The notes below the pieces were generated by a model, which was not told the origin of the DNA, ran no database searches, and was given only the letters and a program-made list of their open reading frames with translations. From Rhodanobacter thiooxydans (lineage in GTDB: Bacteria; Pseudomonadota; Gammaproteobacteria; Xanthomonadales; Rhodanobacteraceae): DNA of 64,000 nt. Positions within the stretch are counted from its first letter, which is position 1. The number at the start of each line of letters is the position of its first letter. Made by a program: the position numbers and the translations under genes. Location of the stretch: assembly GCF_021545845.1 (NCBI RefSeq), contig NZ_CP088923.1, forward strand, positions 3,534,001-3,598,000, given 5' to 3'. Shown in pieces: positions 16,555-54,641 of the stretch.

Positions 16555-18015
16555 ATGTCCCGACGCCTGCGATTGCTGCTCACCGCGTTGGCCGTGGCCG
16601 CGCTGCTATGGCTGCTGTTCGCCGCCGCCGAACGCGCGCTGGCGCTGGCGCAGCGTTTCCTGGATCTGCCGACGTGGCTGCAGTGGACGCTGGGCGGCGT
16701 GCTGCTGGTTTTCGCCGCGACCGGCCTCGCCGTGCTGTGGTGGCTGCTGCGTCCGCGCCGGCGACGCCGGCCGCCGCCGACACCCGATCGCGGCAGCCTG
16801 GAGCAGCGCATCGGCCAGCTGCGCGAACGCGGCGCCGACACCGGCGCGCTGGCGGCCGAACTGGGCGAGCTCGATCGCCGCCGTGCCAGCGCGCGCGTCT
16901 ACGTCGCGCTGTTCGGCGAGATCTCCAGCGGCAAGTCCAGCCTGGTTCGCGCGTTGGCGCCGCATGCGCAGGTGGCCAGCGACGTGCGCGGCGGCACCAC
17001 CCGCGCCGTGGGCCATTACGATGGCCACCTGCCGGATGGCCGCACTCTGGTGCTGGCTGACGTGCCCGGTAGCCGCGAGGCCGGCGGCGAGGCGCACGAA
17101 ACGTTGGCGCGCGAGGAAGCTTTGCGCGCGCACGCGGTGATCTATCTGTGCGCCGGCGACCTCAACCGCGGCCAGGCCGACGAGTTGCGCTGGCTGGCCG
17201 ACTTCGGCAAGCCGCTGCTGCTGGTGCTGAACAAGGCCGACCAGTGGAGCGATGCCGAACGCGATCAGTTGCTAGCACGCCTGCGCCGGCATGCGCAAGG
17301 CATCGCCAGCGCGGTGCTGGCGATCAGTGCCGGCGGCGGCGAACGCTACCAACGCCAGCTTGCCGACGGCGGCACCGAGTCGGTGGAACGCCAGCGCAGG
17401 CCGGCGATCGAACCGCTGCTGCAGGCCCTCGAACGGCTCACCGCGCCCGGCGCCGAAGGCCTGGAGGACCTGCGCGAGAACGCCGTGCTGGCCGGCCTGC
17501 ACCAGCGCACCGGCACGCTGGAAGCGCAGACCCGCGCGGAGGAAGCCGAGCGCATCGTGCGCAAGTACGCCCGCCGCGCCATTGTCGGCGCGCTGGCCGC
17601 GGTGGCGCCGGGCAGCGACCTGGTGATCCAGGGCGTGCTCGCCACCGGCCTCACCCGCGCGCTCGCCGAACTCTATGGCGTGAAAGTCAGCGACGTGCAG
17701 ATCGAGGATTTCGTGCAGCAGGCCCGACTCACCCTGCGCACCGGCAGCTCGATCGTGCTGGCTGTCGCCGGCAACACGATGAAAGCCTTCCCCGGCCTCG
17801 GCACGCTGGGCGGCGGCGTGCTGCACGCCTTCGCCTACGCGCTGATCTTCGACTCGATGGGCCGCGCCCTCGCCGCGTCGCTGGCCGAACGCCGCAGTCT
17901 CGACCAGCACGACGCCGGCGAACGCCTCAAGGAACTGCTCGCCGATACTGGCGGCACCCGCCTGCGCCAGCTGGCCGCGCTGACGATGGAAGCGGTGCGC
18001 GAACGCGCGGATTGA
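16555..18015 (+). CDS. Membrane-anchored GTPase with DUF697-like C-terminal domain (YcjF-related)
   Basis: A 486-residue protein with two N-terminal membrane helices (about 5-25 and 40-63) and a basic stretch PRRRRRPPP. The GTPase domain has a P-loop GEISSGKSS near 121, a switch threonine in RGGTTRAVG, the G3 motif DVPGS, the G4 motif NKAD, and an Era/Der-like core. The C-terminal part (about 340-475) has GlyAla-rich hydrophobic segments (GALAAVAPGSDLVIQG, AFPGLGTLGGGVLHAFAYAL) typical of DUF697 proteins. The cellular role of this family is not established; membrane stress or envelope functions have been suggested for relatives. It starts 141 bp from the divergent sensor kinase and is followed by a long repeat region. 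Confidence 0.8.
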   Translation: MSRRLRLLLTALAVAALLWLLFAAAERALALAQRFLDLPTWLQWTLGGVLLVFAATGLAVLWWLLRPRRRRRPPPTPDRGSLEQRIGQLRERGADTGALAAELGELDRRRASARVYVALFGEISSGKSSLVRALAPHAQVASDVRGGTTRAVGHYDGHLPDGRTLVLADVPGSREAGGEAHETLAREEALRAHAVIYLCAGDLNRGQADELRWLADFGKPLLLVLNKADQWSDAERDQLLARLRRHAQGIASAVLAISAGGGERYQRQLADGGTESVERQRRPAIEPLLQALERLTAPGAEGLEDLRENAVLAGLHQRTGTLEAQTRAEEAERIVRKYARRAIVGALAAVAPGSDLVIQGVLATGLTRALAELYGVKVSDVQIEDFVQQARLTLRTGSSIVLAVAGNTMKAFPGLGTLGGGVLHAFAYALIFDSMGRALAASLAERRSLDQHDAGERLKELLADTGGTRLRQLAALTMEAVRERAD

Positions 18016-18069
18016 GGGGTGGCGGCTGGTGTGCGCGACAGTCGCCTTTCACCATCCGGAGAAAAAGCC

Positions 18070-18345
18070 CAAGAGCTTTCGTCCTCCTGCGGAGGCCGAG
18101 GTACTTCTCTTTTGCTTGTCCAAAAGAGAAGTACCCAAGAGAAAACGACACCCCGCTTGGCGCTTGCCGGGCATCCTGCCCGGCAAGTCCGTGAGCCGGG
18201 GCCGGGCTTTTCGACCGGACTCCTGTCCGGACGAAAAGGAGCCGACATCCCTGTCGACTCCCGCTGCGCGGCCTGTCGACCCCGGCTCACCGCCGCACAG
18301 GGGCCCCGGGTAAAGCTGCGGGCCATCCTGGCCCGCACTCGGTGA
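18070..18345. repeat. Structured repeat element, copy A
   Basis: Read on the plus strand the order is: AGAGCTTTCGT; a small stem CCTCC-TGC-GGAGG; a 15-bp perfect hairpin with 6-nt loop (18100-18135, arms around TACTTCTCTTTTG); CACCCCGCTT; then hairpins at 18163-18187 (11 bp), 18207-18238 (14 bp, one mismatch), 18241-18257 and 18317-18337 (9 bp). The last four have TCC, TCCT or TCCC loops on the plus strand, so the minus strand shows CAGGATG or CAGGGATG. It is an inverted, diverged copy of 18440-18705. The 861 bp from 18016 to 18876 hold these two copies and no credible gene. Confidence 0.85.
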
Positions 18346-18439
18346 TGAAGCTGAAAAGCAACAGCCACAGCAAAGCGTCGCTTAGCTGTGGCTTCGCTCT
18401 CGCTCTTGATCTGGCTCTTCTGAAAAGTGCGCGCTGGGA

Positions 18440-18705
18440 GCGCGCTGCTCTACCGGGGTCCCCTCTGCAGCGGCGGGCGGGTGGAGGAAAAGCCCGCAGG
18501 GTGGCCGGCAGGGATGCCGGCCAGTTTGTCGTCAGCACAGGATGTGCTGTCGACAAACCCCGTAACCCGAGCGCGAACCTTGCGGGCAGGATGCCCGCAA
18601 GGCGCGGAAGCGGGGTGGCCTTTCTCTTTGGTTACTTTCTCTTTGGCCACGCAAAGAGAAAGTAACTCGCGCGCCGAAGGCGCACGAAAGCTCTTGTCTC
18701 TGATG
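18440..18705. repeat. Structured repeat element, copy B (inverted relative to copy A)
   Basis: Reverse-complemented, it gives the same order as copy A: AGAGCTTTCGT; small stem GCGCC-TTC-GGCGC; a 15-bp perfect hairpin with 6-nt loop (18631-18666, arm TTACTTTCTCTTTG); CACCCCGCTT; then hairpins at 18578-18602 (11 bp), 18525-18557 (15 bp, one mismatch) and 18502-18523 (9 bp). The stems differ from copy A in sequence but remain complementary. Here the plus strand shows loops GGA or GGGA, each in a CAGGATG or CAGGGATG context. The 170 bp from 18706 to 18876 contain nothing I can name. Confidence 0.85.
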
Positions 18706-18876
18706 CTTTTCGCTCTGAATGCGGCAAGAGCAAGAGCATCGCGCACGACCGAAGGAAGTCCCTTGTGGACAGAGTGCGCTACAGGGCCACGCAAGAGAAA
18801 AAAGTGACTCGGCCGCCGCTGGCAGATCAAGATCCCTGCTCCCGAACCAACAGCGTCATCGCGCCCAACAAGAACC

Positions 18877-19671
18877 CTATGGTGTGCCGGCAAACGCCGC
18901 GCGCAGCCAGTCGTGCATCAGGCGGTAGCTGCGGGTGGCGGCACGCTCGTCGTAGCGGCAGCCGGGCGAGTTCTCGCCGGTCTCGGTGAAGCAGTGAACG
19001 GCGTGGCCGATCACCACGAACTGCCAGTCAGCGGGGCTCATGCGCATCTCGTCCATGAACTTGTCCGCATCCGGCATGGTGCCCTTGTCATCGGCGCCGT
19101 TCATGACCAGCACGCGCGCCTTGATATTTTTCGCCAGTGCCGGGTTGTCGGTATCCAAACCACCGTGAAACGACACCACCGCGGCCACGTCGGCACCGCT
19201 GCGCGCCAGATCGAGCACGGCCGAGCCGCCGAAGCAGAAGCCGATCGCAGCCAACTTCGATGCGTCGAGCGGCGCGCTGGCGGCCTGCGCCTTCAGCTGA
19301 TCCAACGCCAGATTGATCCGCTTGCGCATCAGCGTGCGGTCGCCGTACAGCGGCTTCACCGCCGCCTGCGCCTGGTCGGCATGGCCCGGCTGCGGGCGCA
19401 CGTTGGCGCCGTACATGTCGGTGAGCAGGATCACGTAATCCTTGCCGGCGATCATCTCGGCCTTCTTTACGGCCACGTCGTTGACGCCATACCAGTTCGG
19501 CACCATCACCAGGCCCGGCCGCTTCGCGCTCGACGCGTCGTCGTAAACCAGTACGCTGTGGAAACGGGTACCGTCCTGGGTCCATTCGATCGGGCGATGC
19601 ACCATCTTCGCCTGAACGGTGAGGCTTGAACCGGCGAGCAACAGCAGGCAACAGAGTCGGGCGATGCGCAT
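18877..19671 (-). CDS. Secreted dienelactone hydrolase family protein
   Basis: Alpha/beta hydrolase of the dienelactone hydrolase family; substrate unknown. The ATG at 19671 follows GGAGGATC, and the product (264 aa) begins with a signal peptide MRIARLCCLLLLAGSSLTVQA. The nucleophile elbow is GFCFGG with Cys near residue 146, where classical dienelactone hydrolases also use Cys. The Asp is probably in NGADDKG near 192, and the His in GHAVHCF near 225. The C-terminus YDERAATRSYRLMHDWL is typical of the subgroup annotated as periplasmic DLH-like proteins. It lies 115 bp downstream of the ubiquinone-type hydroxylase, with palindromic repeats between, and may be an independent unit. Confidence 0.85.
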   Translation of the reverse strand: MRIARLCCLLLLAGSSLTVQAKMVHRPIEWTQDGTRFHSVLVYDDASSAKRPGLVMVPNWYGVNDVAVKKAEMIAGKDYVILLTDMYGANVRPQPGHADQAQAAVKPLYGDRTLMRKRINLALDQLKAQAASAPLDASKLAAIGFCFGGSAVLDLARSGADVAAVVSFHGGLDTDNPALAKNIKARVLVMNGADDKGTMPDADKFMDEMRMSPADWQFVVIGHAVHCFTETGENSPGCRYDERAATRSYRLMHDWLRAAFAGTP

Positions 19672-19696
19672 GATCGATCCTCCGGTGGCATTGACT

Positions 19697-19781
19697 CCCT
19701 CCCCTGCTTGTCCCAAAGGGACTCCCTTCGGTCGCAGGGGAGGGTTGCGGTGCTCCTCCCCCTGCAAGCAGGGGGAGGAGC
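19697..19781. repeat. Two tandem strong hairpins (palindromic repeats)
   Basis: Hairpin 1: arms CCCTCCCCTGC (19697-19707) and GCAGGGGAGGG (19734-19744), enclosing an inner stem GTCCC-AAA-GGGAC. Hairpin 2: arms GCTCCTCCCCCTGC (19752-19765) and GCAGGGGGAGGAGC (19768-19781) with an AA loop, 14 bp perfect. They lie just downstream of the hydroxylase stop on the minus strand and could stabilise or terminate its transcript, although no U-tract follows. A shorter relative of hairpin 2 is embedded in murE (50198-50219). Confidence 0.8.
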
Positions 19782-29416: not shown

Positions 29417-29470
29417 GAAGTGAGCAAAAGCAGCCAGGCCACCACTCTCGTTCCCCGCTCCTCTTCGCTC

Positions 29471-29925
29471 AGAGCTTGTGAAGAAAACCACATCCTGTGG
29501 TTTTCTTCGATCGCGAGTCCGGTACACGCCCGGACTCGCTCACATGGAACAGTCACTGGCGTGACTGTTTCATGTCCGGCCATCGGGCAACCGCTCCTGC
29601 GTTGCCTCAACTCGGGCATCGGGCAACCGCTCCCTGCGTTGCCTCAACTCGGGCATCCATGCCCTCGCCATGCCCCTCGCCCTGGCCGACCTGAGAGGTT
29701 GAAAAAATCACAACCTCTCAGAGCTTGTGAAGAAAACCACATCCTGTGGTTTTCTTCGATCGCGAGTCCGGTACACGCCCGGACTCGCTCACATGAAACA
29801 GTCACTTGCGTGACTGTTTCATGTTCGGCCATCGGGCAACCGCTCCTGCGTTGCCTCAACTCGGGCATCCATGCCCCTCGCCCTGGCCGACCTGAGAGGT
29901 TGAAAAAATCACAACCTCTCACTGC
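29471..29925. repeat. Duplicated block of hairpin repeats between pdxA and rsmA
   Basis: Two direct copies, beginning at 29471 and 29720 (249-bp period), are nearly identical for about 150 bp. Each contains, in order: a 13-bp hairpin with TCC loop (29480-29508 and 29729-29757; arms GAAGAAAACCACA/TGTGGTTTTCTTC), a 10-bp stem GCGAGTCCGG/CCGGACTCGC, an 11-bp stem around CAGTCAC/GTGACTG, and the phrase GGGCAACCGCTC...GCCTCAACTCGGG, which occurs a third time near 29610-29655. A stem GAGAGGTTG/CAACCTCTC closes each copy. No coding sequence is credible in the 515-bp gap. Confidence 0.9.
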
Positions 29926-54266: not shown

Positions 54267-54274
54267 ATGGAAGA

Positions 54275-54641
<367 letters not shown>

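Follow-up and report, generated by a model that had tools for sequence, protein, structure and literature searches.

The question raised by this locus is why two inverted arrays of hairpins should carry different stems around a nearly constant GGA loop. The locus occupies positions 18070–18705 of a 64,000-nucleotide stretch of the Rhodanobacter thiooxydans genome (hereafter the window; NCBI RefSeq assembly GCF_021545845.1, contig NZ_CP088923.1, positions 3,534,001–3,598,000, forward strand), where two inverted halves of approximately 275 bp each flank a centre of approximately 80 bp. Based on comparison of its copies, we propose that each half encodes a structured RNA that binds CsrA (RsmA); this reading, to which we assign a probability of roughly 55%, is unproved and is the best explanation that we have of the loop.

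The inverted pair of structured copies noticed in a preliminary description of the sequence is borne out by the complementarity of its arms (73% between 18070–18158 and 18608–18696, 71% between 18160–18210 and 18555–18605), and the region folds far below shuffled sequences on both strands (z of −13.3 and −17.0, 20 shuffles each). Read on the strand that leads outward from the centre, a half presents hairpins H4, H3, H2, H1 and H0 and an end hairpin, in that order, and a long-range stem encloses H3 and H2; the loops of H4 to H1 consist of A(N)GGA(N) closed by a C-G pair. All seven of the hairpins originally described are present with GGA-strand loops, four with GGA on the minus strand (half A) and three with GGA on the plus strand (half B), and they are joined by an eighth, at 18429–18445, whose loop TGGGA lacks the A. 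The features are as follows, with helices numbered as in the covariation analysis.

18070–18344, minus strand: half A, with the minus strand as its GGA strand, outward from the centre; used as BLAST query; covariance-model match at 18160–18290, minus strand, 145.8 bits.
18317–18337, minus strand: H4 of half A, loop AGGAT on a perfect 9-bp stem; the loop ACGAT stands on such a stem in many copies.
18238–18261, minus strand: H3 of half A, loop AGGGAT, holding ACAGGGATGT; stem variants are compensated, and there is one U-G pair on the minus strand.
18207–18238, minus strand: H2 of half A, loop AGGA; arms 18207–18220 and 18225–18238, 93% complementary; helix 4.
18163–18187, minus strand: H1 of half A, loop AGGAT on a perfect 11-bp stem; helix 5.
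18100–18135, minus strand: H0 of half A, a 15-bp hairpin; pseudoknot candidate through possible pairing of its loop with 18148–18151; helix 6.
18083–18095, minus strand: end hairpin of half A, CCTCC/GGAGG; helix 8, with two-sided change at 4 of 5 pairs.
18191–18290, minus strand: long-range stem of half A around H3 and H2, 18191–18204 with 18277–18290, 93% complementary; helices 1 and 2.
18345–18425, no strand: centre between the halves, defined from the sequence; the position of cargo genes in some other copies.
18426–18705, plus strand: half B, inverted relative to half A, with the plus strand as its GGA strand, outward from the centre; covariance-model match at 18473–18605, plus strand, 133.9 bits.
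18429–18445, plus strand: H4 of half B, with a degenerate loop, TGGGA, from which the A is missing; placed by sequence and alignment.
18502–18523, plus strand: H3 of half B, loop AGGGAT on a perfect 9-bp stem; helix 3, with two-sided change at 8 of 8 pairs.
18524–18558, plus strand: H2 of half B, loop AGGAT, reading ACAGGATGT; arms 94% complementary; helix 4.
18578–18602, plus strand: H1 of half B, loop AGGAT on a perfect 11-bp stem; helix 5.
18631–18666, plus strand: H0 of half B, a 15-bp hairpin; pseudoknot candidate through possible pairing of GGCCA in its loop region with TGGCC at 18616–18620.
18671–18683, plus strand: end hairpin of half B, GCGCC-GAA-GGCGC; helix 8.

The loop carries the argument. 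In the element copies of loci L185–L294 we counted hairpins of at least 7 bp that are closed by C-G and hold GGA in the loop, a cut below which the TGGGA loop of half B, on a 6-bp stem, falls. Of the distinct hairpins, 56 (290 instances) retain both the loop A and the T facing it, 27 (56 instances) retain the A with a changed or missing T, and a single one (1 instance) has lost the A and retained the T; none shows replacement of the A-T pair by another pair, which the recount was able to see. Were A-T merely a base pair, its two sides should change about equally, and the observed pattern is asymmetric. In other genera and families (six genomes, 40 distinct matches) the stems are largely rewritten while A and GGA stay: the A is present in 80 of 80 H2 and H3 loops; of the 79 that remain when one truncated H2 is set aside, 77 have GGA and 51 the T that follows it. 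H1 carries a different loop in about half of the 40 matches. Such loops are rare elsewhere: among hairpins of at least 7 bp outside elements (window and 110 loci), a loop of the CA(N)GGATG type occurs in 3 of the 144 that are intergenic and in none of the 650 that are coding. The window itself contains 49 perfect hairpins of at least 8 bp, six of them with a CA(N)GGATG loop, four in the element and two in a repeat at 29480/29729. This second repeat (29470–29920) consists of two tandem copies of approximately 250 bp with the hairpin GAAGAAAACCACA-TCC-TGTGGTTTTCTTC, in which the loop is identical to that of the element and the stem is unrelated.

Spelled out, the loop pattern (C, A, an optional N, GGA, a variable or absent base, and G) is that of the CsrA consensus. 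Systematic evolution of ligands by exponential enrichment (SELEX) gave RUACARGGAUGU for CsrA, with ACA and GGA invariant, mostly in six-base loops closed by AC/GU pairing and on hairpins of which most had no more than four contiguous pairs; the repeats of CsrB, CAGGA(U/A/C)G, lie in loops or in single-stranded stretches of other kinds (PMC7652899). With A and GGA fixed and the base facing the A variable, the element matches the CsrA consensus as plain palindromes would not. The resemblance to ACARGGAUGU was initially attributed to ACAGGATGT at 18524–18558, which lacks the R; an exact match does exist, as ACAGGGATGT on the minus strand of 18238–18261. The lack of a CsrA homologue had been named in advance as grounds for abandoning the idea, and the source genome encodes a canonical CsrA of 67 amino acids (90.8 bits). 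A second, divergent CsrA-like gene lies on a small contig (G000:C2:151783–151953; 32 bits, above the Pfam cut-off).

A further condition laid down beforehand concerned stems that are not compensated in the genomic copies, and compensation was found. Our main alignment (A1) comprised 40 of 162 halves, of which 25 formed a second alignment (A2); BLAST matches that spanned fewer than 235 query bases or had a length outside 240–330 nt were dropped. Across its 56 pairs, 99.1% of cells are standard pairs and two-sided change occurs at 38 pairs, with a covariation score of 0.509 compared to 0.170 ± 0.008 in shuffled alignments (none of 500 reached the observed value) and no more than 0.107 with partners slid; the structure was derived from the same 40 halves, which biases this test in its favour, and the copies are related by descent, so that counts do not equal independent events. 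Stems at one site vary between species with pairing retained, as illustrated by H3, where TGGCCGGC, TGGTTCGC, GGCGTTGCC, GGAGTCGAC and GGAACCGAC each face an exact complement. A candidate pseudoknot of 4 bp joins the H0 loop to a segment upstream of it; 98.7% of its cells are paired, 2 of its 4 pairs show two-sided change, and it occurs as TGGCC/GGCCA, TGTC/GACA, TGCCC/GGGCA and TGCTC/GAGCA, variant rows of other genera with a misplaced upstream anchor (GGCGGG and similar) having been ignored by eye. In the six genomes of other genera, two-sided change affects 31 of 37 pairs, with a score of 0.561 compared to 0.176, in an alignment fitted to the model.

Pair types modestly favour the outward (GGA) strand as the RNA strand. 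On this strand, G-U exceeds A-C by 22 to 13 over all stems and, under a post hoc restriction to the inner 8 bp, by 22 to 4, in a count of hairpins anywhere in 110 loci, a few of which probably lie outside elements; the H0 control, counted on both strands (14:14), is uninformative as to strand. Pairs predicted for a single strand favour that strand by construction; for the 75 pairs predicted for both strands there were 57 G-U and 13 A-C cells. In other genera the cells numbered 21 and 7, or 12 and 6 without H1, and the GGA strand folds slightly better (−216.9 vs −211.7 with RIBOSUM scoring). This preference bears on the idea that the opposite strand is the functional one, its (A)UCC(N)U loops acting as C-rich, anti-Shine-Dalgarno-like seeds that pair with mRNA, which we consider highly improbable. 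In its favour, the best sub-threshold Rfam match in the window, Bacillaceae-1 (RF01690; 29.2 bits, E 0.0032, cut-off 35), lies on the strand opposite to GGA, and weak matches to this family occur in 5 of 41 genomes. The cut-off was passed in 0 of the 41, however, no family matched 20 element loci at the gathering score (the sole match in the window being RNase P, 54274–54638, with none to the element), and the mismatches favour G-U on the GGA strand. Moreover, in a published motif scan the reverse complement of Bacillaceae-1 matched the CsrA motif strongly (PMC4333381).

The element is abundant. BLAST with the 636 bp yielded 47 matches in the source genome (both strands, overlapping matches counted); of 60 genomes, 41 gave matches, among them all 35 relatives of the same genus. 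Half A as query recovered single halves and nearly complete copies at other loci. The suggested genome-wide covariance search, performed with a model built on H3-H2-H1 (132 positions), likewise found many copies: 21 matches in the source genome, with positives in 44 of 45 genomes of the genus (source genome counted). Among genomes of the family's other genera 3 of 3 were positive, and among those from the rest of the order 3 of 32; a class-wide draw gave 5 of 274, namely the source genome, G047 and three weak ones. All six named Rhodanobacter loci scored 127–140 bits. Hairpin order is kept at shared chromosomal sites, and some copies lack one or more hairpins of the set. One site is common to 14 loci, and in L186 it has FliP on one side and a 90-amino-acid gene followed by Bac_export_1 on the other; by Pfam on L186, it resembles the interior of a flagellar export operon. 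A second site, common to 12 loci, lies in L187 downstream of the ALAD gene. A restriction to convergent gaps, suggested by the first gene caller, was rejected when a retrained caller showed all arrangements: two-half copies are flanked by convergent genes in 26 cases, tandem genes in 22 and 17, and divergent genes in 5, with 2 undetermined. A link to phages or plasmids was also rejected, there being no phage match and one plasmid-collection match over 10% of the query. Among the matches listed, hosts of an H0-like pattern were Rhodanobacter, Dyella, Luteimonas, Pseudomonas, Azotobacter and Stutzerimonas, with a short H0-like pattern also in some Clostridia, Bacteroidales and other records. Near the H0-like sequence in the Pseudomonas, Azotobacter and Stutzerimonas loci (L074–L146), common loops are GCA, GTA and GGA, closed by GC/GC, and only some are CATGGATG or CAGGGATG.

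The original suggestion is partly supported, by the consensus fit, the compensated stems and the presence of CsrA. Several observations weigh against the proposal of a CsrA-binding RNA, some of them against a simple CsrB-like sponge. The GGA loops of each strand are confined to one half; one hairpin position often carries ACGAT (6 stems, 51 loci), ATGAAT is a second departure from GGA (5 stems, 5 loci), and half B of the window has its TGGGA loop. Stems of 7–14 bp, rich in GC, are longer than those favoured by SELEX. No sigma-70 promoter-like site was found in 18000–18880, which is weak evidence. The same-genus genome G035 gave no covariance-model match, and the array is mostly missing from the Dyella and Pseudomonadaceae loci with the H0-like sequence (model matches in 1 of 9 and 0 of 22 loci, respectively). 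The strand bias in pair types, which are less dependent counts, is a modest 19 to 10. Further pair types number 71 in the 40-half alignment compared to 64.8 in shuffles (5 of 500 reach it), and in the six genomes of other genera they are not above shuffles (197 of 500). Finally, two-sided changes outnumber one-sided changes in the 40-half alignment by 426 cells to 21, approximately 20:1, so that stems seem to be exchanged or copied whole at the DNA level; recombination among copies or template-switch copying could replace stems without selection for RNA pairing. Stem covariation, which had been advanced as an argument for selection on structure, is by itself no proof of selection on RNA.

The excess of two-sided over one-sided changes is one of the observations that would be accounted for by an element acting purely as DNA, in which hairpins form in single-stranded DNA, their loops are recognised by a transposase or recombinase, and template switching and recombination maintain the stems with no RNA function. 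We regard this as rather unlikely. The fixed loop and the asymmetry at its A do not follow from stem copying, a fixed A beside a varying T is not what such an element predicts, and the recurrence of one loop on up to four hairpins per end and its fit to the CsrA consensus would go unexplained.

The arrangement of copies bears on possible mobility, and the description of the locus as an inverted pair requires extension, since half-elements, single halves and cargo-bearing forms also occur. In the window the element is placed between two genes:

16555–18015, plus strand: MMR_HSR1 GTPase gene (Pfam), flank, outside the element.
18877–19767, minus strand: dienelactone hydrolase family gene (Pfam), convergent flank, outside the element.

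When outer ends were scored as facing pairs within 5.5 kb (5 of 8 genomes), 33 were +/−, 1 was ++ and 0 were −+, which counts in favour of a DNA-level element; the 33 were spaced at 589–711 bp (21 pairs), 1.7–4.7 kb (8) or 15–114 bp (4). Comparison of the window's own site in ten genomes revealed a presence/absence polymorphism that also speaks for a DNA-level element: the source genome (G000), G013 and G022 carry the element, with the halves in opposite order in G013 and G022; joined outer ends are apparently left in G009 (by eye); G007, G016, G018 and G019 have gaps of 80–160 bp without a half-element, some with another small inverted repeat; and in G002 and G021 other sequence occupies gaps of 587 and 520 bp, respectively. 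Amid these filled, remnant-like and lacking sites, neither a target duplication of the element nor a mobilising enzyme was identified, which tells against that explanation. The REP-like alternative entertained at the outset is weakened: the genome has seven Y1-transposase genes, and the four of these loci that were examined (L062, L066–L068) are devoid of GGA/TCC-loop hairpins, on which basis a Y1/RAYT link was rejected; this too counts against a DNA-level element with its own transposase. An insertion sequence with DUF4372 and DDE_Tnp_1 (domains from L189, 4225–5397) interrupts three source-genome copies near the H0 loop; in L189 the break falls between bases 43 and 54 of the query, and the copies of L192 and L194 have the loop (query 45–52) on both sides of it, as an 8-bp duplication would give.

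In some copies the halves bracket cargo, which again would suit a DNA-level element:

L265:941–3072; L288:905–3093; L269:3358–5247; L250:3277–4683; L293:1817–3017: cargo between halves, GC 0.50–0.56.

A scan of 10 open reading frames from 7 of 9 intervals gave PADLOC matches for 4 of the 10, in 3 of the 7 intervals, and two cargoes resemble candidate anti-phage genes. The cargo of L265 is a DUF5131 gene and its partner (PADLOC candidates PDC-M30/M41; the partner match is weak, 36.7 bits); at the same site L288 has a CAP12/Pycsar-type TIR protein (PDC-S35), and L277 and L196, each with a single half, are free of cargo. At a third site L269 encodes a 324-amino-acid protein without a family match and L261 has no cargo, and at a fourth L250 and L194 differ. 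Cargo thus lies between halves in some species and is lacking in others at two chromosomal sites. In L267 (PADLOC match, HNH enzyme) a half is found on one side only. The left flank of L264:3030–6392 is the window's GTPase site and its right flank a different element site, an apparent rearrangement at element copies. These exchanges could also be attributed to halves that serve as insulators and homology arms, stopping transcription at cargo edges and aiding recombination between sites, with a loop that has no protein partner. Strong hairpins at both ends, different or no cargo at one chromosomal site in different species, and the junction in L264, such as recombination between copies would produce, are consistent with this idea, which we nevertheless find quite improbable, as it leaves unexplained the conservation of the loop across families on unrelated stems.

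Returning to the CsrA-binding reading, we envisage a half as the DNA copy of a conserved structured RNA that would be read outward from the centre, through read-through transcription from flanking or cargo genes. The RNA would display three or four A(N)GGA(N) stem-loops, closed by C-G, as CsrA (RsmA) sites, and CsrA dimers might be held on pairs of loops. A half could then be a dispersed decoy for CsrA, or provide flanking or cargo transcripts with a 3′ region bound by CsrA, and the inverted halves would be the ends of an element able to bracket exchangeable cargo genes. What we observe are the structure and its covariation, a fixed loop, copies and their inverted pairing, the presence or absence of cargo at the same sites and the csrA gene; transcription, CsrA binding, a decoy effect and any mobilising enzyme are inferred.

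With its many CsrA-type loops, the repeat is a candidate antagonist of CsrA that can be tested directly, in an order in which homologues of CsrB or RsmX/Y/Z are reported to be present in none of the sequenced Xanthomonas genomes (PMC7694677). Xanthomonas is a genus related to the hosts of the element. If the reading is correct, the family would be a set of repeats with an explicit ligand at the RNA level, and would mark sites where candidate anti-phage and other genes swap between species, so that the covariance model could be used to find such genes. More tentatively, and with rather low confidence in the whole, we suggest a new class of element with CsrA-hairpin-array ends, which exchanges cargo, including candidate anti-phage genes, and the transcription of whose copies sets the level of free CsrA, in place of or against the missing CsrB-type antagonist. 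A description of the element was not found in the literature on CsrA/RsmA repeats or sponges, Rhodanobacter or Xanthomonad repeats, and cargo elements, in a search that covered subscription journals thinly.

How the element relates to known systems can be seen most readily with CsrB/CsrC and RsmX/Y/Z, with which it shares several GGA-loop hairpins, the CsrB loop being CAGGA(U/A/C)G (PMC7652899). Unlike these RNAs, it consists of many dispersed inverted copies with GGA loops on both strands and long covarying stems, and neither a promoter at the element nor an Rfam match was found. RsmU of Xanthomonas campestris is, likewise, a CsrA/RsmA-binding RNA outside the classic families, but it is a single small RNA derived from an mRNA 3′ untranslated region and no repeat; with its four predicted GGA motifs changed, RsmA binding was retained in vitro, a result to which a caveat is attached (PMC7694677). 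Membership of an Rfam family was rejected, as no match reaches a cut-off; the RsmZ model gave at best 16.3 bits across the source genome (cut-off 44), and the element differs from Bacillaceae-1 in its four hairpins, pseudoknot and inverted halves. Mobile insertion cassettes and miniature inverted-repeat transposable elements with cargo have inverted ends around that cargo and no transposase of their own, as does the element; its ends, unlike theirs, are long structured arrays, no target duplication is shown, and some of its sites are common to as many as 14 loci. With the REP, BIME and REPIN families and their RAYT it shares the form of dispersed intergenic palindromes, frequently in inverted pairs, while differing from them as a 275-bp multi-hairpin unit in which stems are rewritten and loops are fixed, and which can bracket cargo.
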